A stretch of DNA of 30,936 nucleotides from a virus. The DNA lies in IMG/VR virus record IMGVR_UViG_3300042898_000245, positions 1 through 30,936 of that record. One strand, 5' to 3'. Each line of letters opens with the position of its first letter. The stretch's first letter is position 1. Shown here piece by piece: positions 4,272 to 30,936 of this stretch. The position numbers and the translations under genes were made by a program. Below the pieces are notes generated by a model. The model was not told where the DNA came from. It saw nothing but the letters and a program-made list of their open reading frames with translations, and ran no database searches.

Positions 4272-4284
4272 ATATTGACAAAAA

Positions 4285-4366
4285 AAACCTCCTAAATCCT
4301 TTGGGGTCTGACTTCCAAATTCATTAAGAGGTTTAATAACTTCTTTAGGTTCTATTTTGTCAGACC
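4285..4366 (-). promoter_or_regulatory. Structured leader before the primase-helicase gene (possible attenuator)
   Basis: Two inverted repeats interleave. GGTCTGAC at 4305-4312 pairs with GTCAGACC at 4359-4366, and AAACCTC at 4285-4291 pairs with GAGGTTT at 4328-4334. Because the arms alternate, the transcript can form one stem or the other, or a pseudoknot. In the leftward RNA the second stem is followed by a run of eight U ending about 10 nt before the start codon, which resembles a terminator/antiterminator choice. A third pair, CCTAAA (4291-4296) with TTTAGG (4344-4349), overlaps both. The stems are long-range, so chance remains possible. Confidence 0.4.
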
Positions 4367-4376
4367 GAACCGTTCA

Positions 4377-4410
4377 CAAATATACTAATTATTTTAATAT
4401 GTACTCCAAA
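4377..4410 (-). promoter_or_regulatory. Candidate leftward promoter for the replication block
   Basis: The leftward strand has TATATTTG (4377-4384), a perfect TAnnTTTG -7 box for Bacteroidetes, with TTTG at 4407-4410 as a possible -33 box. The 22-nt spacer is longer than the usual 19-20, so the -33 match is weak. Transcription would start near 4370 and give a leader of about 100 nt. Confidence 0.5.
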
Positions 4411-4667
4411 TGTTCTAAAATATTTTTATTTGTACTGAGTTTGTACTGATTAAATTCTTTATTATCAATTACTTAAATTAAAATAGCACAAAAAAACAAA
4501 AAAATTTAGCTTTAAAAAATCACATAAAAATAAAAAAGTAAAAAAATACATACAGTGATAAAAAAAAATAATATAAAAATATATACTATATGTAATAGGG
4601 TTTCAATTGTACTTTTGTACTAATGTTAAATGCTTGATTGTCAGTATTAATTAAAAATAGGCAGCAC
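4385..4667. other. AT-rich non-coding region, candidate replication origin
   Basis: No gene is visible between the primase-helicase and DnaA-like genes. The stretch is extremely AT-rich, with long A runs around 4490-4600 that could melt easily. It holds two tandem pairs of TTGTACT. The neighbours are a DnaA domain IV-like protein on one side and the primase-helicase on the other. An origin is inferred from composition, repeats and neighbours; no classical DnaA box was found. Confidence 0.35.
4430..4621 (+). repeat. Four TTGTACT repeats in two tandem pairs
   Basis: Copies start at 4430 and 4441 (11 nt apart, extended as TTGTACTGA) and at 4607 and 4615 (8 nt apart). They flank the A-rich core of the non-coding region. 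Each contains the palindrome GTAC. They could be binding sites for an initiator or for the phage's small HTH protein. The seven-base unit is short, so in such AT-rich DNA the pairing and spacing carry most of the weight. Confidence 0.4.
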
Positions 4668-4698
4668 AAAAAAACCCTTCCAGCAGTGCCAGAAGGGT
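4668..4698 (-). terminator. Rho-independent terminator after the DnaA-like gene
   Basis: ACCCTTC (4674-4680) and GAAGGGT (4692-4698) form a 7-bp stem with an 11-nt loop. Read leftward, the stem is followed by seven T. It lies 30 nt after the DnaA-like stop and closes the early block that starts at 8267. Confidence 0.85.
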
Positions 4699-4728
4699 CA
4701 AACAAATAATTAATCAAAACAGTATGGA

Positions 4729-5097
4729 CTACAAATTTAATTCTTTGTAGAGATTATTCTTAATTCTAAATTTAATTTTTCGTAATTGTTTTAAACAAAA
4801 ACAGTTCATGACATCATCAACAAGGTTATGATCTTCATTGTAATTCTCAAAGATTAACATTAGCTCCTCAATATAATCAAGATATATTTTATCCTTAATT
4901 GAGATTAGATCATGATGAGTCTTAAGTCCATGTATCACACTTGCATGATCTCTGTTAAACATTGCCGCTATCTCATACAGTGTAAGTCCTTCCTCTCTAA
5001 GTAGGTTGTAAAGATAGAAACGTTTGTAAGTGTAGTGTCTATATCTGTGGCGCGCTTTGAGGTCATTATCCTCAATGTATTGTATTATGTCAGTCAT
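4729..5097 (-). CDS. Stand-alone DnaA domain IV-like DNA-binding protein
   Basis: A 122-aa protein. Residues about 25-60 resemble the DNA-binding domain IV of DnaA: a helix with FYLYNLLREEG, then LTLYEIAAMF, then the signature NRDHASVIHGLK, which corresponds to GRDHTTVLHA in DnaA. There is no room for the AAA+ ATPase, so it can bind DNA but cannot be a full initiator. In phages such proteins may mark the phage origin or compete for host DnaA sites (inference). The ATG at 5095-5097 overlaps the TGA of the 31-aa membrane ORF as ATGA. It is the last gene before a strong terminator and sits next to the candidate origin. Confidence 0.7.
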   Translation of the reverse strand: MTDIIQYIEDNDLKARHRYRHYTYKRFYLYNLLREEGLTLYEIAAMFNRDHASVIHGLKTHHDLISIKDKIYLDYIEELMLIFENYNEDHNLVDDVMNCFCLKQLRKIKFRIKNNLYKELNL

Positions 5098-7922: not shown

Positions 7923-8267
7923 TTAATAAGTTTTAAGGTTTGACAAATAAAGTTCTAATCTTGCAAGAGCTCTTGACTGAATATTAAGTCTATGCTTATA
8001 CTTAGGAAGTAACTCATAGAACATACCTCTGCTCAAATCTTTTAAAGTATCAGATGTCAATCTAATTCGAGTCAACATGCCCTCAATCATCCACTCAACA
8101 TCCTCAACACGCTCAGTTAATAGTTCATAGTCAAGGTATTTACCCTCACCTCTACACTCATTGCAAATATCAGACTCACTATGAGATGGATGCTCATAAG
8201 CACTGCTAATTAATACTGATCCTGACCCCCAACAAGTGTCGCATTCTTTGATAAATTCTGTTTTCAT
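7923..8267 (-). CDS. Zinc-finger protein with two CxxCxGxG motifs (114 aa)
   Basis: Residues 9-42 carry CDTCWGSGSV and CNECRGEGKY, two DnaJ-type CxxCxGxG half-sites that together bind one zinc. The C-terminal two thirds are helical (RVEDVEWMIEGML, then LARLELYLSNL). DnaJ-like zinc pairs in small phage proteins are thought to serve protein or nucleic-acid contacts. There is no J domain. It is the first gene after the best promoter of the window, 27 nt downstream of the -7 box, so it is likely made at once after infection. Confidence 0.75.
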   Translation of the reverse strand: MKTEFIKECDTCWGSGSVLISSAYEHPSHSESDICNECRGEGKYLDYELLTERVEDVEWMIEGMLTRIRLTSDTLKDLSRGMFYELLPKYKHRLNIQSRALARLELYLSNLKTY

Positions 8268-8293
8268 ACTGTTTTTGTTTATTATTTATAGAA

Positions 8294-8324
8294 CAAAGTT
8301 AGTAAGTTTTTTTATATATGCAAA
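8294..8324 (-). promoter_or_regulatory. Leftward early promoter (Bacteroidetes consensus)
   Basis: The -33 box TTTG (8321-8324) and -7 box TAACTTTG (8294-8301) are separated by exactly 19 nt, a full match to TTTG-N19-TAnnTTTG. The promoter before the ERF gene has the same -7 box, the same spacer length and a similar leader (AAAAACAGTATG at the start codon). Confidence 0.85.
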
Positions 8325-8371
8325 TAATTAGCGTAATTTATAATGATTCTAAATAAGATTATCAGGTCTGG

Positions 8372-8390
8372 ACGGGATAAAACGGGATAA
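8372..8390 (+). repeat. Tandem pair of ACGGGATAA
   Basis: Two exact 9-nt copies (8372-8380 and 8382-8390) 10 nt apart. They lie between the early promoter and the 11-bp iterons. One helical-turn spacing suggests protein binding on one face of DNA. This stretch is otherwise free of genes. Confidence 0.5.
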
Positions 8391-8432
8391 TATATGTCTA
8401 TTTAATAAACATTACATCTATCTATGTCGATT

Positions 8433-8475
8433 TTTAGACATACTTTAGACATACTTTAGACATTATTTAGACATA
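8433..8475 (+). repeat. Four 11-bp iterons, TTTAGACATAC
   Basis: Units start at 8433, 8444, 8455 and 8466 with a strict 11-nt period. The first two are exact, and the third and fourth vary only at their ends. An inverted half-unit TATGTCTA lies at 8393-8400. The array lies in the gap between the terminator of the lysis/virion block and the early promoter. It could be an operator or a replication iteron array. Confidence 0.75.
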
Positions 8476-8530
8476 AAAAACCCGCTAAGTGTGGGCGACC
8501 GTGTTTCACAATCCATTAACCATAGCGGGT
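8475..8530 (-). terminator. Terminator at the end of the virion/lysis block
   Basis: ACCCGCTA (8480-8487) and TAGCGGGT (8523-8530) form a perfect 8-bp stem around a 35-nt loop. Read leftward, the stem runs into six T. Read rightward, a T run occurs only 8 nt later, so leftward termination is the better match. The large loop may fold further (GTG/CAC arms) or hold a small element not recognised here. Confidence 0.75.
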
Positions 8531-8621
8531 GTATTCTTTTTTTATAGTCCACCTACTCAGCTTGTGAGTAAAGGGACTTGATAATGATCCGGTAACTGTT
8601 CTAATGGTAAGTATCCGGATA
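8531..8621. other. Non-coding stretch with small hairpin and a 14-bp palindrome
   Basis: The gene-free interval 8268-8621 holds the early promoter, two repeat sets and the terminator listed separately. This right part has a hairpin TACTCA/TGAGTA (8554-8559 and 8565-8570) and a perfect palindrome AGTATCCGGATACT at 8610-8623 that includes the first two bases of the stop codon of the 88-aa gene. A second ATCCGG lies near 8586. No small gene was found. Confidence 0.5.
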
Positions 8622-8888
8622 CTATTTTTTAAATCGCTTTACAACAAACTTAGATGCTAATGTTGCAACAGCTTTAAGGAATTTATTTTCTGACTCTACA
8701 GTTACCTTAGTTCCTGTCTCATCTTTTTTGATGTTGACATCTACTTTCTTACCATCATAGTCAAGCTCATGATTAGTGCCATCTTTGTGGTATTCTATCT
8801 CTGCCTTATTTGTTTGGATGATAACATCTGTCTTATCACCTTCAATGTTAACCTGTACTTTCTTAGGTCTGCCTACTTTCTTTGCCAT
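8622..8888 (-). CDS. Small protein with AT-hook-like N-terminus (88 aa)
   Basis: The first residues, MAKKVGRPKK, contain a GRP core flanked by lysines, as in AT-hook minor-groove binders. The rest is a series of short charged beta-prone segments (VDVNIKKDETGTKVTVE) and a basic helix at the end (KFVVKRFKK). Function unknown; DNA binding is inferred from the N-terminus. It is the last gene before the block terminator and follows the lysin gene by 1 nt. Confidence 0.65.
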   Translation of the reverse strand: MAKKVGRPKKVQVNIEGDKTDVIIQTNKAEIEYHKDGTNHELDYDGKKVDVNIKKDETGTKVTVESENKFLKAVATLASKFVVKRFKK

Positions 8889-8889
8889 T

Positions 8890-9438
8890 TTAAAATTCGT
8901 TTATTAATACTATTGATACTTTCGCTTGGTCTTTTGCCATGCGAACCATTCTCTCATAATCAGGATTATTGTTAAGCACTAAGCATCCCTCTGACCATCC
9001 TCCAATCTGAGTTGCTACCTGTTGACTACCTTTGTTATAGGTTGCTCCATGAACATTCATAAAGATAATGTTATCCATAATGTTAGTGGTGGGGTTTGTT
9101 TTACCATCTGCTGTGTAATCTCTTCTGTAAGGTACTTTGGCAACCTGTCTAAGTGCCTCCATTTTACCTCTGTGAAGTCCATAAGCATAACAATCATAGT
9201 TCCATCTGTCAGCTTCCATTACTGCAGTTCCTTTGTTGCCTTTATTGGTAGTGCAAGAGGTTACATATTGGAAGGCTGAGCCCTTGAATATATATACTTT
9301 ATCATCAAAGATGTTGTTGCCGTCCTCATTTGACCTAACAAACAACAGCCACATATCAGATGGTATGTTCTTATAAGTAGATAATGACTTGACTCTATCT
9401 AAGAGTTGTTTATCAGTGTAGTTCTTAACGTTGCTCAT
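8890..9438 (-). CDS. Putative lysin, L,D-transpeptidase-like (YkuD-type motif)
   Basis: A 182-aa protein with FMNVHGATYN (His130) and GGWSEGCLVL (Ser149, Cys152). This is the His...SxGC layout of YkuD-type catalytic sites, in which Cys is the nucleophile. Related proteins occur in the lysis position of many Bacteroidetes phages, where they probably act on peptidoglycan cross-links. No signal peptide is seen, so release would depend on the holin just upstream, which overlaps it by 14 nt. Which bond it cuts cannot be read from the sequence, and it may act as a peptidase rather than as a transpeptidase. Confidence 0.7.
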   Translation of the reverse strand: MSNVKNYTDKQLLDRVKSLSTYKNIPSDMWLLFVRSNEDGNNIFDDKVYIFKGSAFQYVTSCTTNKGNKGTAVMEADRWNYDCYAYGLHRGKMEALRQVAKVPYRRDYTADGKTNPTTNIMDNIIFMNVHGATYNKGSQQVATQIGGWSEGCLVLNNNPDYERMVRMAKDQAKVSIVLINEF

Positions 9439-30724: not shown

Positions 30725-30755
30725 CAAAGTTAATAAAAGATTGCATAAGTACAAA
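30725..30755 (-). promoter_or_regulatory. Leftward early promoter for the recombination block
   Basis: The -33 box TTTG (30752-30755) and -7 box TAACTTTG (30725-30732) are spaced by exactly 19 nt. This equals the promoter at 8294-8324 in -7 box and spacing. It lies between the stop of the split 119-aa gene and the ERF start and rules out the longer ERF frame. Confidence 0.85.
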
Positions 30756-30764
30756 ATAAAGTTA

Positions 30765-30936
30765 TTAACATTTGTATGTTAGTTCCTCTCCAGTCAGTGC
30801 AAAGTACATATTTTCAAGTTGGTGAACGTATTGATTATTACCTATTCTTAATACATGACCATCAACTTTAATTAGAAAATAATTAAAAAATCCTAACTCA
30901 ACACCAAAATCACCTTTCATAAATACTCTATCAGTA
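30765..30936 (-). CDS. C-terminal part of the split 119-aa hypothetical protein
   Basis: This is the 3' end of the gene that begins at 315. Only 30765-30809 adds new sequence, because the rest is the terminal overlap. The reading frame stays open across the join and ends in TAA at 30765-30767. The stop lies just upstream of the leftward ERF promoter (30725-30755), so the replication block ends where the recombination block begins. No obvious terminator hairpin separates them. Confidence 0.85.
   Translation of the reverse strand, partial: TDRVFMKGDFGVELGFFNYFLIKVDGHVLRIGNNQYVHQLENMYFALTGEELTYKC
30810..30936. repeat. Terminal direct repeat, right copy (assembly overlap)
   Basis: Exact copy of the first 127 bases. 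Trimming one copy restores the circle. No recombination gene, attachment site or inverted end marks this boundary. Confidence 0.9.

Follow-up and report, generated by a model that had tools for sequence, protein, structure and literature searches.

OmpR/PhoB-type operators are built of direct half-sites that repeat with an 11-bp period upstream of a promoter. Short direct repeats also form a type I restriction-modification operator, in which three copies of TTTAGCTAA are bound modularly by RptR; these 9-bp repeats contain a TAGCTA palindrome and lie in the promoter (PMC12255303). In phage lambda, the iterons of the origin, which are bound cooperatively, lie within the initiator gene next to an AT-rich tract and are essential (PMC7466680).

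In this study, two families of short repeats, termed R and Q, were analysed in a control region of a phage genome (IMG/VR record IMGVR_UViG_3300042898_000245, positions 1 to 30,936; this whole stretch of 30,936 nucleotides is called the window). Similar to the OmpR/PhoB-type operators, R consists of direct half-sites at an 11-bp period upstream of a promoter, but it was linked to no response regulator. The R unit and the RptR motif both start with TTTAG, and the defence-locus setting of RptR recalls the bacterial R arrays described below, while R is TTTAGACAT at period 11 and lacks the TAGCTA core. Like ori-lambda, R and Q are tandem short sites in a phage early region, although they are optional, are located apart from the window's replication genes and show no association with an initiator. 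A literature search with the motif strings gave, among the matches listed, unrelated work only.

Results

The window is a virus record whose ends share a direct repeat of 127 bp; it is probably a complete circular map and represents a small, Bacteroidetes-type phage with genes mostly on the minus strand. On one side of the gap that holds R and Q is a late gene of 88 aa (8622-8888), on the other an early gene of 114 aa (start 8267). Along the minus strand the gap contains, in this order, a conserved hairpin, the late-block terminator, the R array, a variant and an inverted R half-site, the Q pair, to which an inverted third half-site belongs, the dyad S and the early promoter (Table 1). An initial annotation had placed the repeats 50-180 bp behind an early promoter, which holds, the promoter being of exact Bacteroidetes type; it had also called this the only large gap, which is wrong for the early region, since the gap at 4272-4728 is larger (~457 bp vs. 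354 bp). The protein-binding-site architecture with helical-turn spacing that it proposed is supported, as read from the sequence, by repeated half-sites with helical spacing near a promoter.

Table 1. Features of the R/Q gap and of the origin candidate in the window
Feature	Position	Strand	Remark
Conserved stem-loop	8587-8620	-	Directly past the stop codon of the 88-aa gene; loop near-invariant (ATACTTACCATTAGAACAGTTA)
Late-block terminator hairpin, long loop	8475-8529	-	R array begins at its U-tract
R array, four TTTAGACAT units, period 11	8433-8476	+	Minus (coding) strand reads ATGTCTAAA
Variant R half-site ATCGACAT	8424-8431	-	Same form seen again in relatives
Inverted R half-site TAGACAT	8394-8400	-	
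Q pair, two ACGGGATAA units, period 10	8372-8390	+	Minus strand reads TTATCCCGT TTTATCCCGT
Inverted third Q half-site TTATCAGGTC	8359-8368		Part of the repeat set
Near-dyad TTATCCCGTC-CA-GACCTGATAA	8359-8380	-	One Q unit plus the inverted third half-site
Promoter-proximal dyad S, ATTTAGAATCATTATAAAT	8336-8354	-	11 bp upstream of the -33 box
Early promoter TTTG-N19-TAACTTTG	8294-8324	-	Exact Bacteroidetes -33/-7 consensus
Better origin candidate, outside the R/Q element	4272-4728	-	AT-rich gap, DnaA-domain-IV-like gene to primase-helicase gene

The coordinates and motifs first given for both repeat families proved right, including the inverted half-unit, and all motifs were present. The unit of R had been written as TTTAGACATAC, which in full fits only two of the four copies; what all four share exactly is the 9-mer TTTAGACAT (starts 8433, 8444, 8455 and 8466), and the two bases 3′ of it differ (AC, AC, TA and AA). 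The two Q units, at 8372-8380 and 8382-8390, are likewise exact copies, and neither 9-mer occurs anywhere else in the window. The R array is non-random, far beyond chance: it ranked first among the tandem repeats of the window with a score of 72 (runner-up 49), and the longest 9-mer run at periods 8-13 was 4 in the real gap vs. 2 in its 500 dinucleotide shuffles, a run of 2 being reached in three of them. Runs in whole-window shuffles (n = 12) likewise did not exceed 2.

Two other structures of the gap were also analysed. The late-block terminator has a predicted folding energy of -24.1 kcal/mol (z -3.2), and its stem bases covary among relatives (CCCGCTA/TAGCGGG, CCTGCTA/TAGCAGG, CCTCCTA/TAGGAGG). 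The stem-loop behind the 88-aa gene showed compensatory changes in five of six stem pairs among 13 distinct sequences, and its 93.6% of paired cells was equalled in 0 of 500 shuffles. No Rfam match was found for 8200-8950, which includes R/Q and this stem-loop, at E up to 1.

Relatives with the same locus (group A) were collected with the neighbouring lysis gene as the scan query, which gave 75 loci with a homologous gap and 53 distinct scorable gap sequences. R spacing was exactly 11 in all 39 neighbouring unit pairs and Q spacing exactly 10 in all 13 distinct relatives. R and Q occurred together in 19 gaps and R without Q in 10, some by one unit only, while 24 had neither. Thus, of the conservation expected earlier, unit sequence and spacing are kept in relatives, but both families are absent from these 24 gaps. 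The number of R units ranged from 1 to 5, and the array is inverted in some phages. Near-identical phages differed by whole units (four in the window, five in L003, three in G035), and some closely related ones by a missing middle segment. Whichever terminator a phage has, its R array starts at or near the U-tract. Against named phages and plasmids, the R/Q DNA (8350-8480) gave short, weak matches only, at chance level. In some relatives, a terminator comes after the promoter-like TCTAACTTTG at a distance of up to ~50-60 nt, just ahead of the R array (L055, L120, L164 and L174 in group A, L203 in group B, described below), a pair that is possibly a tiny RNA gene.

Most relatives carry, ~10-11 bp upstream of the -33 box, either S (ATTTAGAATCATTATAAAT) or P (TTAACA-N6-TGTTAA and variants), with no case of both among the 53 scored gaps. 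In most complete relatives the second early promoter, too, is preceded by P or a variant of it; in the window, a P variant (30766-30781) stands before this promoter (30725-30755). In several relatives P was seen ahead of each of the two early promoters. This recurrence makes S/P the more general operator candidate, and R/Q would be an optional extra further upstream. A 71-aa protein was rejected as reader of the promoter-proximal dyad, as the G011 protein is 100% identical while the dyad there is different.

Pattern scans further detected the same module in distant phages with a different genome plan (group B). Its place there is downstream of a gene for a DnaB-like helicase, and its orientation to transcription is opposite to that of group A, which argues for DNA-level recognition. 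Q was present at 10 and absent at 70 of the 80 group-B loci with this helicase, the usual empty site being a gap of ~28 bp. In group B the half-sites of the near-dyad are kept around a 10-bp spacer, compared with 2 bp in group A. No promoter is evident beside the group-B module, so an operator role at the early promoter leaves this location unexplained. The absences in groups A and B speak against R/Q as an essential operator. Across viral contigs, R was found in 66 stretches vs. 11 for a reversed-pattern control and the Q pair in 55, Q-positive records having a single Q pair each. R occurrences in other viral families were partly tied to ATGTCTAAA start codons, with no gene in common.

An additional element, T (CCAATTTCCCGAAGTGGGGAATATGG...), can occupy the same group-B insertion point. 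In both phage groups, T (CCAATTTCCC...GGGGAATATGG plus TGGCGATTTCGCCA) shares its insertion points with Q (L011, L322, L393, L397); it lies next to Q in the group-A phage L011, and a near-identical T sequence is shared between groups A and B. By their sequences, these pieces thus behave as exchangeable DNA cassettes. A rival reading is a passive recombination linker, in which short sequences are conserved by phage exchange alone with no protein bound. The gap is indeed a patchwork of swappable terminators, R, Q, T and S/P pieces, T moves between the groups as well, and the short-motif identity between divergent phages could reflect recent exchange instead of selection on function. However, the exact 11- and 10-bp spacing survives unit gain and loss, flips and new flanks, which is unexpected for neutral DNA, and we regard the linker as rather unlikely.

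A protein partner was then sought among phage genes. In 21 whole records, some of them themselves fragments, no gene cluster was present in all Q-positive and in no Q-negative phages, and the best-scoring clusters were mere markers of group B. Since the element is tracked by none of the phage genes, a conserved phage protein is improbable as its reader. Two candidates had been named in the initial annotation. The DnaA-domain-IV-like protein (4729-5097) had a Pfam match at E = 1.8e-6, short of the curated cut-off, and in a profile comparison matched domain IV of E. coli DnaA (structure 1J1V) at E = 0.004. It is 95-100% identical between phages with and without Q, which speaks against an obligate binding partner, and Q-bearing group-B records gave no clear match to it. 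The 71-aa protein is near-identical in phages with differing control regions and fared no better.

The repeats had also been proposed as a replication origin. An iteron-type origin at R/Q, with the DnaA-domain-IV-like protein, the primase-helicase or another phage initiator as its binding protein, would fit the AT-rich setting (31% GC) of repeats at helical-turn spacing, the group-B module immediately 3′ of a DnaB-like helicase gene, and a window that encodes a DnaA-domain-IV-like protein; in addition, TTATCCCGT agrees with the DnaA box TTATCCACA in its first six bases, and only in those. However, no TTATCCACA occurs anywhere in the window, and the DnaA-like protein is the same when Q is missing. 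GC skew in the window tracks gene strand and is uninformative on an origin. The absence of R/Q from the 24 group-A gaps and 70 group-B loci speaks against an essential origin; the Q pair (≤2 mismatches) was absent from 32 of 50 records, many of which are fragments. Nor did R/Q covary with an initiator, as primase identity to the window was 92-98% in G034 and G032, which lack R/Q, and 48% in G020, which has Q. An origin at R/Q is consequently judged quite improbable.

A better candidate is the gap at 4272-4728, which is much more AT-rich than the R/Q gap and lowest in GC (minimum 14.5% over 200 bp from 4386) and has AGTACA units at 4400, 4431, 4442, 4608 and 4616. A gap at this position was found in every relative checked, and in nearly all of them it had its own repeats matching the replication-protein type. 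AGTACA units go with the window-type primase, with a modest enrichment of AGTACAA (four in the gap, five elsewhere). In G009 and G011, which have a 743-aa replication protein, TGTAAAC occurs 10 and 11 times in the gap vs. 2 and 3 elsewhere; the corresponding counts were 8 vs. 1 for CCCTTGC in G014, 4 vs. 2 for GGGGCA in G020 and 3 vs. 0 for CCGAAATATTT in G008, and the G024 gap repeat is GGTACAC. Since constant presence and co-variation are thus seen for this gap and not for R/Q, the replication origin likely lies at 4272-4728, not at R/Q.

Arrays of the R type were also searched for in bacteria. Among 84,980 species genomes of bacteria and archaea, the exact R pair was found in 48 stretches, 16 of which contain a Schlafen AlbA_2 plus HATPase_c_4 homologue, with the array ≤~50 bp from its 3′ end in 15 of these. 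Such 11-bp arrays at the 3′ end of the gene were seen in L278, L282, L250, L246, L259, L272, L288, L291 and others. Gene order was read for two loci: in L278 it is hsdM, hsdS, the AlbA_2/HATPase gene, the R array and hsdR, and in L282, read by eye, the AlbA_2/HATPase gene has an hsdS-like gene before it and an hsdR homologue after it. Nine R-bearing genomes searched whole had one R locus apiece. Among Flavobacteriaceae, the R tandem was present in 1 of 399 genomes, the search centre itself; this rarity led to the rejection of R as the site of a regulator that acts globally in the host.

Phage R has the same 9-bp unit TTTAGACAT and 11-bp period as the bacterial arrays and the same mixture of units, one inverted and several direct, but the phage arrays do not lie next to an AlbA_2/HATPase_c_4 gene and are often joined to Q. 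The R array might be a copy or mimic of a host type I restriction operator, which would capture or titrate the defence-linked AlbA_2/HATPase regulator or bring it to the early promoter. The position of the bacterial arrays, the hsd genes around L278 and L282, the single R locus per genome and its rarity in Flavobacteriaceae, and the excess of viral R over the reversed-pattern control all favour such a copy. On the other side, binding of AlbA_2/HATPase to the array is only putative, and the homologues in L304 and L305 (~55% identity) carry other repeats at the same place. The R-positive phages encode no AlbA_2 protein: no PF04326 match was found in the window or in 14 R-/Q-bearing relatives, and a custom profile search of phage ORFs was negative too. 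Furthermore, Q was found in 0 of 99 Bacteroidia genomes searched. We consider the copied operator improbable.

Discussion

The repeats of this locus have fixed spacing, are conserved, gain and lose units, flip, are absent from many close relatives and are reused at a second, unrelated intergenic site. The explanation judged best, with about an even chance of being right, is that 8359-8476 is an optional, exchangeable cassette of putative protein-binding sites, which would form an accessory, operator-like array ahead of the early promoter. Placed between this promoter and the late-operon terminator, such a cassette would comprise R as an 11-bp-period half-site array and Q as a 10-bp-period pair plus dyad. 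A DNA-binding protein probably occupies several adjacent units along one helix face and, once bound, may act from about -70 to -190 to modulate the early promoter or the local structure of the DNA.

From the repeat architecture we infer protein binding, cooperativity and an effect on transcription at R/Q, and an operator reading of these repeats is plausible. The cassette probably spreads through phage-phage recombination; the window phage presumably encodes an Erf-type annealing protein and a YqaJ-type exonuclease. Phages thrive without the R/Q cassette.

An obvious 'iteron-like' block in a phage control region can thus be an optional, horizontally exchanged cassette and not an origin, and the case of R/Q directs attention to a better origin candidate with Rep-specific repeats. 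There is a slight chance that the phage R array is read by an AlbA_2/HATPase-type regulator. The broader proposal, that phage R is a type I restriction-locus operator array which titrates or uses this regulator of host restriction, with Q and T as similar captured operators of other defence or mobile-element regulators, is of low probability; if restriction-locus regulators do recognise R, phage early control and host defence would be connected through DNA alone.
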